From Labia minor (Eukaryota > Arthropoda > Insecta > Dermaptera > Spongiphoridae), in contig OY720346.1 in the NCBI GenBank assembly GCA_963082975.1, positions 37,537,787-37,601,786 of the forward strand: a DNA stretch of 64,000 nt, read 5' to 3'. A model generated the notes under the pieces. It was not told the DNA's origin, did not search any database, and saw only the letters and a program-made list of their open reading frames with translations. Shown one piece after another: positions 11,511 through 56,780 of this stretch (positions are counted from its first letter, which is position 1; each line of letters begins with the position of its first letter). Position numbers and translations under genes: made by a program.

Positions 11511-12028
11511 ACTATTACGAAAATTTTCGATGTCGAGATTTTGATGATTTTATACGTTTTGAAGGTCCCTGAGTCATTTTCACTAAGGTTGAGAAAAATG
11601 TCTGAGGGTGTATGTAGACAAGATTACGCAAACACGGTTTGAGCTAAAATAATTATTCAAATTTCGTAGTTTTCTATCAACTTTTAGAAATGTAGCTCAT
11701 TCGGAAGAGGACCATTACCTAGCACGTTTTCATTTTTTTTCCTCTAAATTGACCTTAAAAATATAATTTTTCTCATCATTAAAAATTGTATAAAACTGGT
11801 ATATATATAGAATTTCAGCTTGATTGAATCGCTGAAAGTACCGGAATTTTTTAATATGTTGACTGCAAAACACGCGCCAGCACGTGACGTGGAGCCATCA
11901 ACAAAGAGCCAAACACGCGCTGGTTTAATAAATATTATTTATTATTTATAATTTATAATTAATTAAATTTAATTTAAATATAATATATGTGATAATTAAT
12001 CCAATTCAAATTTGTGGAGACCATCCAG
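11511..12028 (+). mobile_element. HEL-A repeat, copy 2
   Basis: Nearly complete plus-strand copy. The 5' end is eroded (ACTATTACGAAAATTTTCG). It contains GAGATTTTGATG, the short (TG)n tract, GATTACGCAAACACGGTTTG (core), a CACGCGCCAGCACGTGACG block and a degraded 3' hairpin (GTGGAGACCATCCAG). Confidence 0.85.
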
Positions 12029-14962: not shown

Positions 14963-15555
14963 TATTTGGCCAGAGATAGGATTGCGATCACGAAAATTTT
15001 CGATGTCGAGATTTTGATGTTTTTATACGTTTTAAAGGTCCCTGAGTCATTTTCACTAATGTTAAGAAAAATGTCTGTGTGTGTATATAGACAAGATTAC
15101 GCAAAAACGGTTTGAGCTAGAATCATGAAATTTGGTACACTGGCATTATTCAAAATTTGTAGTTTTCTATCACCTTTTGAGAAATGTAGCTCATTCGGAA
15201 GAGTGTCAGATTTTCATTTTTTTTTCCTCTAAAGTGACCGTAAAAATAAAGATATATGTTTGATAGTTTTTCACATGATTAAAAATTGTGTAAAACTGCT
15301 ATATATAGAATTTCAGCTTGATTGAATGACTGAAAGTACAGTAATTAATTTTTTTAATTTTTTTAATATGTTGACTGCTTATCACGCACAAGCACGTGAC
15401 GTGGTACCATCAACAAAGTATTAAACACCCGCTACTTTAATAAATATTATTTATTAATTTTATAATGTATAATTAATTAAATTTAATTTAAATATAATAT
15501 ATGTGTTAATTAATTCAATTTAAATTTGCGAGATAGTCGAGTGGAGACACTCCAG
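14963..15555 (+). mobile_element. HEL-A repeat, copy 3
   Basis: Full-length plus-strand copy. The 5' end is eroded (GGCCAGAGATAGGATTGCG). The core TTACGCAAAAACGGTTTGAG and ATCATGAAATTTGGTACAC are intact. The 3' end is GCGAGATAGTCGAGTGGAGACACTCCAG split over 15528-15555, i.e. an inverted copy of the 5' 10-mer and then the terminal hairpin. Confidence 0.9.
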
Positions 15556-26278: not shown

Positions 26279-26884
26279 ACTATCTCGCCCAGGGATAGTA
26301 TTACCATCACGAAAATTTTTGATATCGAGATTTTGATGTTTTTATACGTTTTGAAGGTCCATGAATCATTTTCCCTAAGAATAAGGTTGAGAAAAATGTC
26401 TGTATGTGTGTATGTGTACAAGATTACGCAAAAACGGTTTGAGCTAGAATCATGAAATTTGGTACACGGGAATTATTTAAAATTTGTAGTTTTTTTAATC
26501 AAATTTTGAGAAATATAGCTCTTTCGGTAGAAGATAATACCAGATATTTTCATTTTTTTCCCTCTAAACTGACTGTAAAAATAAATATATATGTTTGGTA
26601 GTTGTTCACATGATTAAAAATTGTATAAAACTGCTATATATAGAATTTCAGCTTGATTGAATCAATGAAAGTACCGGAATAGTAAGTTTTTAAATTTTTT
26701 AATACACTGACTGCCAATCACTCACCAGCACGTGATGGGCCATCAACAAAGAGCCAAACACGTGCTGGTTTAATAAATATTATTGATTAATTTTAATTTA
26801 TAATTTAATTAATTAAATTTAATTAAATTAATATATGTGTTAGTTAATCCAATTCAAATTTGAGAGATAGTCGAGATAGTCCAG
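26279..26884 (+). mobile_element. HEL-A repeat, copy 4
   Basis: Full-length plus-strand copy. 5' hairpin ACTATCTCGCCCAGGGATAGT, GAGATTTTGATG, a short (TATGTGTG) tract, TTACGCAAAAACGGTTTGAG and ATCATGAAATTTGGTACAC, a CACGTGATGGGCCATCAAC block, and a 3' end in which GAGATAGTCGAGATAGTCCAG replaces the usual hairpin. Confidence 0.9.
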
Positions 26885-37163: not shown

Positions 37164-37594
37164 TCCCGCCTTTTTTTAATTTTGTATTAATATTTTTTTT
37201 ATATTTAAAATATTTTAAAATTTATAATTTAATTTCGAAATAAAATTAAAAATATTTATTTTTAATAAAATATATATATATATTTATTAATCCCGCTTTT
37301 TTTTAAATGATATTGTATTAACATTTTTTTATATTTAAAATATTTTAAAATTCATTATTTAATTTCGAAATTTTATATTTAAAATATTTTAAAATTTATT
37401 ATTTAATTTCGAAATAAAATTAAAAATATTTATTTTTAATAAAATATATATATATATTTATTAATCCCGCTTTTTTTTAAATGATATTGTATTAACATTT
37501 TTTTATATTTAAAATATTTTAAAATTCATTATTTAATTTCGAAATAAAATTAAAAATATTTATTTTTAATAAAATATATATATATTTATTAATC
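37164..37594. repeat. A+T-rich tandem repeat, about three units
   Basis: Units begin at about 37,164, 37,291 and 37,465 with (T)CCCGC(T)n. They continue with TTATATTTAAAATATTTTAA, ATTTCGAAATAAAATT and a (TA)n tail. Spacing is 127 and 174 bp, and the middle unit holds an extra internal duplication of about 47 bp. The second and third units are almost identical. Confidence 0.85.
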
Positions 37595-37970: not shown

Positions 37971-38094
37971 ACTATCTCGCCAGAGATAGTATTGCGATCA
38001 CGAAAATTTTCGATGTTGAGATTTTGATGTTTTTATACTTTTTGAAGGTTCCTGAATCATTTTCACTAAGGTTGAGAAAAATGTCTGCGTGTGT

Positions 38095-38134
<40 letters not shown>

Positions 38135-38525
38135 AGGCAAGATTACGCAAAAACGGTTTGAGCTAGAATGATGAAATTTGGTACATGGACATTATTCAAA
38201 ATTCATAGTTTTCTATCAACTTTTGAGAAATGTAGCTCAACCGGAAGAGGGTCATTACCTACAACGTTTTGATTTTTTTTCCTCTAAAGTGACCGTAAAA
38301 ATAAAGATATATGTTTGATAATTTTTCACATGATTAATAATTGTATAAAACTGCTATATATAGAATTTCAGCTTGATTGATTAGCTGAAATTACCAGAAT
38401 TAATTTTTTAACACTGCAAATCTCACGCGCCAACACGTGACGTGGTGCCATCAACAAAAAGCCAAACATGCGCTGGTTTAATATTTATTATTTATTATTT
38501 ATAATTTATAATTAATTAAATTTAA
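37971..38525 (+). mobile_element. HEL-A repeat, copy 5 (3' end lost, expanded (GT)n)
   Basis: 5' hairpin ACTATCTCGCCAGAGATAGT is intact. The internal microsatellite is expanded to about 45 bp of GT (38,087-38,130). The core, TCACGCGCCAACACGTGACG block and TTAATTAAATTTAAT region are present, but the 3' terminal hairpin is missing. Confidence 0.9.
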
Positions 38526-38654: not shown

Positions 38655-39696
38655 AAAAAAATAACAAATTTCATATGTATATTTATTTTTATAAATGTTT
38701 AGGCAAATTTTGAAATTAATATATATTTAAATTCAAATTGTATTTAATTGCGATATCTACTGGACAAGGTGGAGATCTCGCCCTCTTTTGATCATAAGTC
38801 ATACTAATTTTTATTCTTTGACCCAGTAGAAGCTGAGAAATATTATTCCGCGTCAACGTACTACCGCGCATGCGCGCCGTGGACTTTGGACCTAGCGAGA
38901 GCGTAGTAGAACGAAAGACAGCACAAAACGAAGAGGCAGATAGCCTCTTTCTCAAAGACGAAAGACCGGACAAAAGAAAGACCCAGATAGCCTCTCTCTC
39001 AAAAACGAAACACCGCACAAAAGAGAGTCGGAGATAGAGGCTATCTCATTCTCACTCGTTATATCTATATCTTTTTTCTCTCTTGCGTTTCGTAACGCGT
39101 TACGAAATTTCAATTTTTCAATTCACTCTCCATTCTCAACCAAATGTCAGGACGCCGCTAAAGAAGTTTCACTTCAAAAAAATAACAAATTTCATATGTA
39201 TATTTATTTTTATAAATGTTTAGGCAAATTTTGAAATTAATATATATTTAAATTCAAATTGTATTTAATTGCGATATCTACTGGACAAGGTGGAGATCTC
39301 GCCCTCTTTTGATCATAAGTCATACTAATTTTTATTCTTTGACCCAGTAGAAGCTGAGAAATATTATTCCGCGTCAACGTACTACCGCGCATGCGCGCCG
39401 TGGACTTTGGACCTAGCGAGAGCGTAGTAGAACGAAAGACAGCACAAAACGAAGAGGCAGATAGCCTCTTTCTCAAAGACGAAAGACCGGACAAAAGAAA
39501 GACCCAGATAGCCTCTCTCTCAAAAACGAAACACCGCACAAAAGAGAGTCGGAGATAGAGGCTATCTCATTCTCACTCGTTATATCTATATCTTTTTTCT
39601 CTCTTGCGTTTCGTAACGCGTTACGAAATTTCAATTTTTCAATTCACTCTCCATTCTCAACCAAATGTCAGGACGCCGCTAAAGAAGTTTCACTTC
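38655..39696. repeat. Perfect-looking 521-bp tandem duplication
   Basis: Two adjacent units (about 38,655-39,175 and 39,176-39,696) appear identical throughout when read base by base. Within each unit there are 47-bp subrepeats (ACGAAAGACAGCACAAAACG..., three, the last diverged), a 20-bp palindrome TTTCGTAACGCGTTACGAAA, a CGCGCATGCGCGCC site, and an end with the palindrome GAAGTTTCACTTC. The identical 100-codon minus-strand frames (38,716-39,018 and 39,237-39,539) translate the subrepeats and are not credible genes. Diverged relatives of the unit end lie at 36,137 and 43,045, so this is probably part of a mobile element. Confidence 0.9.
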
Positions 39697-52591: not shown

Positions 52592-53101
52592 ACTATAGTA
52601 TAAAAAAATATATGCATGTGTATATGTGTATGTGTAGACAAGATTTCGCAAAAACGGTTTGAGCTAGAATAATGAAATTTGTTACACATGCATTATTCAA
52701 AATTTATAGTTTTCTATCAACTTTTGAGAAATGTAGCTCATCAGGAAGAGAGTCATTACCTACCAGATTTACATTTTTTTTCCCTAAAATGACCGTAAAA
52801 ATAAAGATATATGTTTGATAGTTTTTCACATGATTAAAAATTGTATAAAACTGCTATATATGAAATTTCAGCTTGATTTAATCGCTGAAAGTATCGGAAT
52901 TAATTTTTTAACACGTTTACTGGCAATCACGCGCCAGCACGTGTCGTGTTGTCATCAACAAAGAGCCGAACAGGCGCTGGTTTAATAAATATTATTTATT
53001 AATTTTAATTTATAATTTAATTAATTAAATTTAATTTAAATATTATATATGTTAATTAATCCAATTCAAATTTGCGGGACATTCGAATGGAGACACTCCA
53101 G
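52592..53101 (+). mobile_element. HEL-A repeat, copy 7 (5' part lost)
   Basis: ACTATAGTA joins directly to the microsatellite (TGTGTATATGTGTATGTG), so the first 100 bp or so are deleted. The core, CACGCGCCAGCACGTG block and 3' end (GCGGGACATTCGAATGG, AGACACTCCAG) are present. Confidence 0.85.
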
Positions 53102-54640: not shown

Positions 54641-54703
54641 TACGTTTTGAAGGTCCCTAAGTCATTTTCACTAAGGTTGAGAAAAATGTCTGTGTGTGTG
54701 TGT
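54641..54703 (+). mobile_element. HEL-A repeat, copy 9, left part
   Basis: GTACGTTTTGAAGGTCCCTA, then TTGAGAAAAATGTCTGTGTG: the HEL-A 5' region up to its (TG)n tract, where the 28S/R2 insert begins. The remainder of the same copy continues at 56,334. Confidence 0.9.
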
Positions 54704-54726
54704 GACGGGAGTAACTATGACTCTCT
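54704..54726 (+). pseudogene. 28S rRNA fragment upstream of R2 site
   Basis: GACGGGAGTAACTATGACTC then TCT matches eukaryotic 28S rRNA immediately upstream of the R2 insertion site (canonical GGCGGGAG..., one G to A change here). The last bases TTAAGG before the canonical R2 cut are missing, a common small deletion at R2 5' junctions. It abuts (TG)n with no other 28S sequence to the left. Confidence 0.9.
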
Positions 54727-54822
54727 GGGCCCTCTTCCCAGTTGAGTCATGGTTCAGCAAGCAGCAGCCTCCTCGTGGCTCCCGCCGGATACCCTGATCA
54801 AAACAGGGGAACTAACTGTGCC
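54704..54822 (+). ncRNA. HDV-like self-cleaving ribozyme of R2 type (predicted)
   Basis: Predicted double-pseudoknot elements in order: P1 5' strand GACGGGA (54,704-54,710); P2 5' strand GGTTCAG (54,751-54,757); P3 GCC / L3 TCCTCGT / P3' GGC (54,767-54,779), where L3 closely matches the HDV loop; P1 3' strand TCCCGCC (54,780-54,786); GG for P1.1 (54,787-54,788); P4 hairpin CCCTG-ATCAAAA-CAGGG (54,792-54,808); J4/2 CTAA with the presumed catalytic C at 54,812; P2 3' strand CTGTGCC (54,816-54,822). P1 has one A-C mismatch, caused by the G to A change at 54,705; with the usual 28S base it would pair fully. P2 has one mismatch. Cleavage would fall just before 54,704. R2 elements of several arthropods are known to use such ribozymes to free their 5' ends, some inside 28S sequence. 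Confidence 0.8.
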
Positions 54823-55054
54823 TGGTGTAAGTAACTTGTGCTGCCTCTGCGTACCCAGGTGCCTGCGGGTTGCCATCCCGCTCGCACGACTTCAAGTCGG
54901 CCCAAAGACTAAAAAGAAGCCTCGGACAAGGACGGACTCATCCAACGCCGGAGAGCCATCTGGCTCTTCCGGCCCGACCATTGCAACGAATAATGCCGAC
55001 ACGACGGATCACCAGGACCTCTACCGCTATGTAAACCGGACCTGGTGGCAGTAA
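54749..55054 (+). pseudogene. R2 N-terminal ORF remnant
   Basis: Frame of 101 codons starting MVQQAAASSWLPPDT. It overlaps the ribozyme, so the start may not be the true one. Residues around VGPKTKKKPRTRTDSSNAGE are basic and serine-rich, then SGSSGPTIATNNADTT. No complete zinc finger or Myb motif is visible, although CCLCVPRC (residues 31-38) is cysteine-rich. The frame ends at TWWQ where the endonuclease frame takes over in a different phase. Taken as the N-terminal part of the R2 protein by position. Confidence 0.5.
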
Positions 55055-55389
55055 GGGATGGCATAGCCCTAATTCTGGTTGCCCAGGTGGTGAGTGAACA
55101 TTGTAATCTGGATGAAGTTCACCGGACTAAAAAGGGTAAATATACCGAGCTCGAAAGCTCAATTAAACGGAGGTATAAGGTAAATGAAGTTAAATTTGGT
55201 TCATTTACCCTCAACTGTAGGGGAGTCTGGAGTATGAACAACCTTAAAGAACTACTAGGATTGGGAATCCTTAAAAAAGGCGAAATCAAAATCCTATCAT
55301 CAAGAGTTCTAGTGGGTGGACTTTCTGCATTCTGGAGCTTTAACAAAACAACCAATACGAGAAGCCAGACAAAAACTGGCATAGGATGA
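55030..55389 (+). pseudogene. R2 C-terminal endonuclease domain, catalytic Asp lost
   Basis: Starting upstream of the first Met, the frame reads PLCKPDLVAVRDGIALILVA, then QVVSEHCNLDEVHRTKKGKY, then VNEVKFGSFTLNCRGVWSMN, LKELLGLGILKKGEIKILSS and RVLVGGLSAFWSFNKTTN. KPD followed 12-14 residues later by D is the PDDXK-like restriction-enzyme motif of R2-clade endonucleases. Here the expected LDxQV is LVAQV, so the second acidic residue is Val. That loss should abolish target cleavage. The rest of the domain is uninterrupted, which suggests either recent decay or mobilisation in trans. Assignment is from motif recognition. Confidence 0.8.
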
Positions 55390-55555
55390 GGTGGCCCATA
55401 AGAGATCAGCAGAAAGGGTGCCCTTCAGGCGCAATATACCGTGTGCTTTTAGTGGGTATTACCATTCTCTACTCACGTTAGAATGGGCGAGTCCCACACT
55501 CCCAGAACCTTGATCTGGGGTGCGTAAATGCATTTCCGCACACTTAAAAAAAAAA
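55390..55555 (+). other. R2 3' untranslated region and poly(A) junction
   Basis: Follows the endonuclease stop. Contains CCAGAACCTTGATCTGGGG, an inverted repeat (CCAGA...TCTGG) at 55,502-55,518, and ends in an A run directly joined to 28S TAACCAAATG. R2 3' UTRs are folded and bound by the R2 protein; no specific fold is claimed. Confidence 0.6.
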
Positions 55556-55628
55556 TAACCAAATGACTCGTTATCTAATTAGTGACGCGCACGAATTGAT
55601 TAACGGGATTCCCACTATTCCTAGCTTT
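55556..55628 (+). pseudogene. 28S rRNA fragment downstream of R2 site
   Basis: TAACCAAATGACTCGTTATC, then TAATTAGTGACGCGCACGAA and TTAACGGGATTCCCACT match 28S rRNA immediately 3' of the R2 cut (canonical TAGCCAAATGCCTCG...), with several substitutions. Similarity fades after about 70 bp. Together with 54,704-54,726 this brackets the R2 copy exactly at its standard site. Confidence 0.9.
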
Positions 55629-56333
55629 TTGATTGAGGCAGTTATTAAATAATGATCTAGTTGATTTCCCCACCTGGTGTGATGGATTAGCGAGATTCCC
55701 ACTGTTATCTCTTGCGAGATAGTCTGTCCCTGTCTTTTGATAGGGATATTTATTGAATAATAATATCGTTGATTTCCCCACCTAGTATGGTGTGCAACCT
55801 CTATATGGAATATGTTGGTTCTCAAGAGATTCGCGAATGTGAATTCACTTATTTCGTATGTGCTGCCATACTGAGGGGATCTACTAGCGGAGAGTCTTAG
55901 CAAGTAGCTACCTTCCATAGGTTCCCGTCGTAAGTACCTCTTTTGAGGGGATCTAAATGCTACCGCTGCGCCCCTTTAGGTCCGGGGATAGAATAGGCCT
56001 AAGGTAGTTGCTGCCTGCCGTAAAAGGCGACTAATAGGCTTTTCGCTAAGGATTCGTATGTCTAACCCAGTCCGTCCTCCAAACATTATTATAATTATAC
56101 CCTCCACGCCCTCCAGTCTCAAAGGTGGCGGTAACCTTTCGTTCCCACAATAGGAACCGAAGAAGTCTTGGGATTGAGATATCTTTGGTATATCATTCCC
56201 AAGATTTAGGGCGATCGACCATTATGGGCCTGAATGATCATAGCATCAGAATGGTACCACGGGATCTGCCCGGTGAGAATTCTCCCATACTCACGAGCTA
56301 CGTTGCGTTTCATCACACTTGAGATTCATACTT
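55629..56333 (+). mobile_element. Unidentified 3' part of the 28S/R2 insert
   Basis: About 700 bp, G+C-rich. Its start repeats: GGATTAGCGAGATTCCCACT at 55,682-55,701 is a second 28S-like head, and GTTGATTTCCCCACCT occurs at 55,660 and 55,768, giving two diverged tandem units of about 90 and 115 bp. Later landmarks are TGCTGCCTGCCGTAAAAGGC (about 56,011) and CCCAGTCCGTCCTCC. The stretch ends at the (TG)n tract of HEL-A. It may be the 3' end of a microsatellite-targeting non-LTR element, but I cannot identify it. The minus-strand frames here translate the repeats and are not genes. Confidence 0.4.
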
Positions 56334-56780
56334 TGTGTGTGTGTGTGTGTGTGTACAAGATTACGCAAAAACGGCTTGAGCTAGGATCATAAAATTTGGT
56401 ACACGGACATTATTCAAAATTTGTAGTTTTCTATCTAACTTTTGAGAAATGTAGCTCATTCGGAAGAGGGTCAGATTTTCATTTTTTTTCCTATAAATTC
56501 ACCGTAAAAATAAAGATATATATTTGATAGTTTTTCAGATGATTAAAAATTGTATAAAACTAATATATATAGGTTTTCATCTTGATGAATCGTTGGAAGT
56601 AACGGAATTAAATTTTTAACATTGCAAATCTTGCGCCAGCCCGTGACGTTATGCCATCAACAAAGAACATGGGCGCTGGTTTAATTAATATTATTTATTA
56701 ATTTTGATTTATAATTTAATTAAATTAATTTAATTTAAATATAATTTATGTTATTTAATCCAATTCACATTTGCACTCCA
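56334..56780 (+). mobile_element. HEL-A repeat, copy 9, right part
   Basis: Resumes with (TG)n at 56,334-56,354, then TTACGCAAAAACGGCTTGAG, ATAAAATTTGGTACACGG, the CTTGCGCCAGCCCGTGACG block and an eroded 3' end (TTTGCACTCCAG) with the hairpin lost. Confidence 0.9.

Follow-up and report, generated by a model that had tools for sequence, protein, structure and literature searches.

A probable self-cleaved 28S-R2-28S-R1 transcript inserted outside the ribosomal DNA of Labia minor

A 64,000-nucleotide (nt) stretch of contig OY720346.1 of the dermapteran Labia minor (assembly GCA_963082975.1, positions 37,537,787 to 37,601,786; hereafter the window), which lies inside the 604 Mb, 71-contig genome searched here, carries a composite insert at 54704-56333. 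This insert joins 28S ribosomal RNA (rRNA) sequence, the retroelement R2, a second piece of 28S and a derivative of the retroelement R1, all outside the ribosomal DNA (rDNA). Its 5′ edge falls at position -28 of 28S, counted upstream from the R2 site, where the hepatitis delta virus (HDV)-like ribozyme of R2 is predicted to cut, and the same edge recurs across the genome. The likely origin, with a probability of roughly 0.84, is a co-transcript that cleaved itself at -28 and was inserted as a chimera at a TG site by the machinery of R1.

In the proposed pathway, a 28S gene occupied at its R2 site by R2, and at its R1 site by R1 or a short derivative of it, would give rise to a single RNA. The R2 ribozyme, whose helix P1 takes its 5′ strand from 28S, would cut this RNA at -28. 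The R1 protein would then recognise the R1 3′ end, nick a TG-rich site similar to TGTCCC, with which its 28S target begins, and reverse-transcribe the whole chimera up to the ribozyme-made 5′ end, leaving a 28S-R2-28S-R1 insert away from the rDNA. The initial annotation had proposed a self-cleaved RNA reverse-transcribed at a TG tract. The recurring -28 edge, an HDV-like fit and the duplications at resident R2 junctions support that proposal, to which R1 is now added as the likely engine; cleavage in the cell would be read from its trace in DNA.

Anatomy of the insert and its target

On reading the sequence, the insert splits the (TG)n tract of a dispersed high-copy repeat. Directly 3′ of the left part of the tract stands GACGGGAGTAACTATGACTCTCT (54704-54726), which is 28S from -28 to -6 with a G-to-A change at -27, and no further 28S lies left of 54704 in this copy. 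The position and edge first described for the insert thus hold, as does its order: 28S leader, R2 5′ region to about 55028, internal deletion, R2 3′ part with an A-run to 55555, 28S, and about 700 bp of further sequence. Two parts of that description are amended. The second 28S piece spans the interval from the R2 site to approximately the R1 site (71 of 71 probe nt aligned, 89%), and the 700 bp are R1-type, an assignment that follows from the element order in a longer relative described below (L014 continued in L076; loci are numbered L and contigs C). The R1 part is a short derivative that lacks the R1 coding region. Its 5′/middle junction is also found in L009, L011, L013, L017, L023 and L025, and the last 36 nt of the insert match the end of L060, another R1 3′ copy. 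The window copy is not an autonomous R2 at the 28S R2 site: it lies off the rDNA and its R2 is internally deleted. When the internal deletions arose is an inference.

When the two flanks of the insert were joined and run against the genome, 4115 first-look candidates for the host repeat were obtained. The TG tract is uninterrupted in all 40 matches that were scored, so a common repeat was the target of the insertion. The (TG)n of the window copy is split into a left part of 15 nt and a right part of 21 nt (36 nt), compared with 15-25 nt in 12 other copies (21-25 in eight, 15-18 in four copies from the window) and a tract of about 53 nt at 38082-38134. An estimate of the insert's own target duplication from tract length (36 versus 21-25 nt) was dropped in view of the copies with 15-18 and about 53 nt. 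More copies of the host repeat reside in the window at 38036-38454, 15026-15354, 26345-26693, 11553-11901 and 52617-52958, the first of which holds the tract of about 53 nt.

Recurrence of the -28 edge

The edge was examined with a genome-wide census of a 21-nt pattern, 28S -26 to -6 with at most three mismatches, which is independent of R2 sequence and blind to copies truncated right of -26. The pattern occurs at 43 sites versus 1 for a reversed control, and so is not a product of chance. At 26 of the 43 sites the flank is non-28S and the left edge lies at or beside -28: 18 match 28S exactly to -28, two extend one or two bases further (L072, L074), in five the match stops at -27 (L062, L069, L018 and one of two leaders each in L012 and L014), and the last is the window copy with its changed -27. 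Six sites are rDNA-resident, with 28S reaching at least to -116; five of these are spaced about 16.6 kb apart on C5, where the left side and 5′ end were read, and the sixth (L047+L037) was read on both sides. Two more are inner leaders of duplicated resident junctions, and one (L075) looks like a chance match. Three copies with more than three mismatches were read as well (L022, the second copy of L027, and L028), of which one matches to -27 and two to -28; L028 lies in the rDNA region of C5. Not all of these edges are independent, as the inner L014 leader and L018 sit inside a longer element with a common upstream segment, which L022 also has.

In a genome search with the insert, 12 of 48 rows start at insert positions 1-5 (the window copy and L016 included) and one at 39; the matches in the remaining 35 lie outside the 5′ part. 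The sequence that follows the leader varies widely among copies and falls, by similarity, into four R2 5′-end types, so the edge is not the boundary of one repeat family. The initial annotation had asked where the 5′ ends of other copies fall; the answer is 26 census sites at or beside -28 versus eight others, considered further on, in which 28S extends further left.

Could such an edge have arisen in another way? A translocation or repair insertion of an rDNA fragment at the DNA level, broken by chance near -28, might leave 28S on both sides of R2, as in L048+L039, or 28S beyond -116, as in L024. It would leave the recurrence of the edge at 26 sites unaccounted for, along with the R1 3′ ends and target duplications of the sister copies, and is highly improbable. 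The spread of an inherited 28S leader from masters outside the rDNA, in which case the edge would go back to a single ancestral event or a small number of them, deserves more weight but is still unlikely. The second copy of L027 and L028 have a common changed leader, a compensating P1 change and similar flanks, and L014, L018 and L022 have their common upstream segment; these points favour such masters. However, the edge is found in four R2 5′-end types, in R2-ended and R1-ended forms and among mostly unlike flanks, and inherited leaders would still need trimming in every round.

Resident junctions and the ribozyme fold

For the R2 of an earwig, of Nasonia giraulti and of silkmoth, self-cleavage at -28 has been predicted and confirmed, and R2 5′ junctions have been described with tandem duplications whose length matches (PMC3774820). 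The R2 of Bacillus rossius also cleaves at -28, and there a G-to-A change at the P1 base lowered cleavage about tenfold (PMC4370867). In L. minor, five resident R2 are of one type. Three have simple junctions (L049, L051, L052), and the other two (L050, L053) carry a second leader in a tandem duplication that starts exactly at -28, which is the published signature of cleavage at this position. These duplications bear on the idea that -28 marks a stop of reverse transcriptase, caused by RNA structure or an rRNA modification at -29, rather than the 5′ end of the RNA. Such a stop would have to coincide with the predicted cut despite different downstream sequences, and the resident duplications match the signature of cleavage; a stop of this kind is very unlikely.

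At the gathering threshold, Rfam identifies no family in the window. A permissive search of 54650-54900 returns, as the best of 4227 families, the HDV-like drz-agam-1 in the expected register (20.1 bits, E 0.074), a score below the gathering cut-off of 37. The fit of an HDV-like model, which the initial annotation had made a condition, is there, although below the Rfam cut-off. The most conserved sequence of R2 ribozymes, CCUCCUCGUGG (PMC5035012), is present at 54768-54778. Pair counts were made on 23 of 30 core sequences (19 R2 and 4 R1 copies); those left out, in which the leader was not found or which are rearranged or near-duplicate, are the window's own R1 core, L019, two from L023, L048, one from L006, and L045. 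In the 19 R2 copies, 127 of 133 P1 cells are paired, with two-sided changes at three pairs; 16 of 2000 shuffles reach this value. P3 is paired in 67 of 69 cells across R2 and R1 copies, which none of 2000 shuffles reach. The family displays a nested double pseudoknot, P1-P4, with the L3 motif and a candidate catalytic C.

In the second copy of L027 and in L028, the changed leader GGTGGGAG is matched by a change in the 3′ strand of P1, from C-G to U-A (U3-A41), which suggests that the fold was kept while the sequence was outside 28S constraint; with their flanks alike, the two may represent one event. In copies of 5′-end type D (L069, L072), the P1 partner CTTTCGCC occurs once in about 350 nt each, a weak pattern for which about 0.3 occurrences are expected by chance (an estimate).

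R1 3′ ends and the insertion machinery

The 3′ ends of the sister copies implicate R1. By eye, seven of nine sister R1 3′-end loci reach TGT and then diverge; L059 has no TGT end and L033 no recognisable R1 end. TGTCCC is the point at which 28S resumes after R1, where 28S reads CCCACTGTCCCTATCT, and it adjoins the R1 3′ end in L023. Target duplications flank several of these copies: 14 bp in L065+L031 (GTCGAATGAGTGAC), 15 bp in L023 (TTGTCCCGGTTTAGA) and an uninterrupted 11 bp in L014+L076 (TTGCTATTGTG), which extends to 16 versus 14 nt with a 2-nt difference. Each of the three is reached by 0 of 2000 shuffles of the left flank. The target of L014+L076 is a retroelement gene (Pfam RVT_1 in the left flank, the same kind of gene by eye in the right). 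In all four duplication-bearing sisters, L061+L017 being the fourth, a -28 edge at one boundary is paired with an R1 3′ end at the opposite one.

Most likely, then, the insertion machinery is that of R1, and for the window copy the R1 enzyme would be identified from its 3′ end and TG target. Insertion of this copy by the R2 protein instead is quite unlikely: several other copies do end in the R2 3′ untranslated region (UTR) and an A-run followed directly by flank, whereas the window copy continues through R2 and 28S to an R1 3′ end at a TG site. The copies with R2 3′ ends differ from the R1-ended ones: L015, L018, L021 and L022 end in an A-run and then flank, and L067+L078 and L066+L079 display no clear duplication by eye. 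In L024 and L058, 24-31 nt of downstream 28S follow the 3′ end before the flank, which suggests a read-through RNA as their template.

Sister hybrids and a second ribozyme-like core

One sister, L014 continued in L076, spans about 8 kb and comprises a 28S leader, R2, an A-run, 28S running from TAGCC to CCCTATCT, the R1 5′ region and two open frames. Its R2 contains a reverse-transcriptase domain (Pfam RVT_1) and is itself incomplete: nothing in it matches the 3′ coding part. The first frame is R1 open reading frame (ORF) 1 by position, with no Pfam match, and the second holds an Exo_endo_phos_2 endonuclease domain and, by eye, reverse-transcriptase motifs. L061+L017 is more intricate than the other three duplication-bearing sisters. 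One R2 is joined there through 9 nt of 28S to part of another R2, after which come 28S and R1; with L088 (L061+L088+L017, C1:8347731 down to about 8340300), two R2 of different type stand in tandem with a short R1 at the end. An extra segment of about 170-600 bp lies between the outer 28S leader and R2 in L014 (58467096-58466483), L012 (17313739-17313573) and L065, and in L014 and L012 it sits between two leaders. Template jumping into a resident junction, with subsequent cleavage at the outer leader, would explain this arrangement. In L045 (C5:17373162-17373721), a segment of R2 3′, 28S and R1 5′ sequence borders immediately on an R2 5′ end that bears the -28 edge and lies in inverted orientation, resembling a 5′ inversion.

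The R1 5′ region contains a second HDV-like core that resembles the R2 ribozyme and is found in the window (55885-55970), L011, L013/L006, L017, L023, L025 and L045. Its P2 is changed in sequence and still pairs (GUAGCU/AGCUAC versus GCAGCU/AGCUGC). The core is incomplete in L014, the copy whose R1 has open frames. P1 of this core, paired in 27 of 32 cells, is uninformative, with 1667 of 2000 shuffles reaching the count. None of six genome sites has an R1 copy starting at the predicted cut of this core; R1 5′ sequence extends left in all six, by only about 10 bp in the alignment of L025. Conceivably, R2 and R1 act as a two-element transcription unit in which the ribozyme trims at -28, the R1 machinery moves the whole 28S-R2-28S-R1 RNA (about 8 kb in L014+L076) off the rDNA, the genome thereby recording ribozyme processing dozens of times, and R1 has taken up an R2-like core; the odds on this wider proposal are even.

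Observations that weigh against self-cleavage and R1 insertion

Several observations count against the origin favoured here, a transcript self-cleaved at -28 and inserted by R1. The first group concerns the edge. At eight of the 43 census sites outside intact resident junctions, 28S extends further left (L016, L020, L024, L048, L054, L055, L056, L070). Four of them (L054, L055, L056 and L070; C5, 19.55-19.59 Mb) look like one tandem array, which would reduce the eight to five cases. L020, in the rDNA region of C5, and L024, with its 28S beyond -116, both have a 5′-truncated R2. In L016 (C10:53537292) and L048 (C6:16317380), both off the rDNA, 28S stops at a common point, about -82/-83 (TTTCTGCCCAGTGC), an unexplained second boundary. 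The initial annotation had regarded 28S left of the edge in other copies as evidence against it. L016, which has the same R2 5′-end type as the window copy, is such a case, one exception in a clear pattern. L016 also has the -27 A, which would weaken P1 and fits an uncleaved leader; this is a single case, and in the window copy that A goes together with a short edge. In L048+L039, a direct repeat, AGAAAATTTTGAAAATCAACT, is found at some distance from either end. L064 shows the -28 edge without the 3′ half of the ribozyme, for which a later or template-switch deletion must be assumed, and no recognised R2 follows the edge in L073 and L074. In the window copy taken by itself, the edge is ambiguous between -28 and -26 (up to 2 nt), since (TG)n precedes a leader with A at -27; it is the family of copies that fixes it.

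A second group concerns the fold. P2 is paired in 123 of 138 cells across R2 and R1 copies, a count reached by 185 of 2000 shuffles, and the P4 counts in two groups are reached by 2000 of 2000 and 287 of 2000, so neither helix stands clearly above the shuffles. Folding without pseudoknots gives no better result than shuffled sequence (z -1.2). In the window copy, P1 contains an A.C mismatch and J4/2 an insertion, because of which its ribozyme is probably inactive now.

The remaining points concern integration. The window copy's own target duplication is not measurable within (TG)n, given the range of tract lengths in other copies. One extra A separates the duplication from the -28 leader in L065. 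The duplication of L061+L017 is weak, being only 9 bp and reached by 153 of 2000 shuffles, and two duplication-bearing, R1-ended sisters, L014+L076 and L061+L017, lack the starting TGT.

Features of the insert

The coordinates of the insert and its parts are collected in Table 1. Elsewhere in the window, a 47-nt repeat forms two arrays that lie about 520 bp apart (38910-39037 and 39431-39558), and there is a 174-nt tandem pair at 37197-37545.

Table 1. Parts of the composite insert and adjoining target sequence (window positions)
Feature	Position	Strand	Basis
Left part of (TG)n target tract, high-copy dispersed repeat	54690..54703	+	sequence, repeat matches
28S leader, -28 to -6 (A for G at -27); holds P1 5′ strand, 54704-54710	54704..54726	+	sequence, 28S census
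R2 5′ region: remaining HDV-like ribozyme and coding start, to internal deletion	54727..55028	+	matches of other copies end or start nearby
HDV-like ribozyme core, predicted	54761..54844	+	Rfam alignment, pair counts; positions counted by eye
Core helices P2 5′ / P3	54761-54766 / 54767-54769 with 54777-54779	+	by eye
L3, 54770-54776; motif CCTCCTCGTGG	54768-54778	+	by eye
P1 3′ / P4	54780-54786 / 54792-54796 with 54804-54808	+	by eye
Candidate catalytic C / P2 3′ (displaced by J4/2 insertion relative to other copies)	54812 / 54839-54844	+	by eye
R2 3′ part: C-terminal coding remnant, 3′ UTR, A-run	55028..55555	+	copy alignments
28S spacer, R2 site to R1 site	55556..55629	+	copy alignments
R1 5′ region, two related repeats with a piece resembling the 28S R1 site	55630..55960	+	repeat and copy alignments
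Second HDV-like core in R1 5′ region, decayed here (P2 GUAGCU/AGCUAC in relatives)	55885..55970	+	copy alignments
Short R1 derivative, middle and 3′ sequence, common to several other copies	55961..56297	+	copy alignments
R1 3′ end, preceded by a small internal deletion; homologous to L060 end	56298..56333	+	alignment
Right part of (TG)n tract; host repeat runs on to about 56774	56334..56354	+	sequence, repeat matches

Relation to known elements and implications

R2/R1 hybrids, cleavage at -28, and R1 copies outside 28S with leaders and duplications are each known already. The closest counterparts are the Drosophila hybrid elements termed SIDEs, which combine an R2 ribozyme at the 5′ end with an R1 3′ end and are moved by the R1 machinery with 14-bp duplications (PMC3414825). 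The window copy likewise has an R2 ribozyme at its 5′ end, by homology and fold, and an R1 3′ end, with R1 as its likely mover; a duplication of 14 bp is seen in the sister L065+L031. SIDEs occupy the R1 site of 28S genes and retain of R2 only the ribozyme and a few nt (PMC3414825). In contrast, the window copy is flanked by a high-copy repeat, and the copies described here lie off the rDNA and keep the -28 leader together with the 3′ part of R2, the 28S spacer and the R1 5′ region; the composite L014+L076 extends to R1 ORF1 and ORF2. The ribozyme resembles the -28-cleaving R2 ribozymes in its 28S-derived P1, its cut site and the duplications at resident junctions (PMC3774820, PMC4370867). The published -28 data in those sources consist of in vitro cleavage and rDNA junctions, whereas here the probable cut end is the edge of insertions outside the rDNA.

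Drosophila R1 copies outside 28S offer a second parallel, having duplications of 3-14 bp, 28S-like targets and, in some cases, a 28S leader (PMC2718515). Off-rDNA insertion, duplications, a target resembling the 28S site and a leader are thus features common to both, although the Drosophila R1 leader ends at -9 and is of variable length, and R2 was seldom seen outside its locus (PMC2718515). Non-site-specific R2-like elements provide R2-clade copies at many sites, as here, and no 28S leader is described for them in the accessible portions of the sources (PMC7650587, PMC5035012). In the open-access literature, no report was found of ribozyme-cut 28S leaders on off-rDNA R2 or R2-28S-R1 copies; Xiong et al. 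1988, on R1Bm and R2Bm outside 28S, could hold one.

Cut sites of R2 ribozymes have so far come, in the available sources, from in vitro assays and from rDNA junctions, at which the 28S leader, annealing with the target, is difficult to discern. Off the rDNA the leader is kept as a scar, so that the cut site can be read directly from genomes with such copies, lineage by lineage and over time. The insertions also suggest that the R1 machinery can take R2 and 28S sequence away from the rDNA, a point of relevance to the escape of site-specific elements and to off-target inserts of R2-based gene insertion tools.

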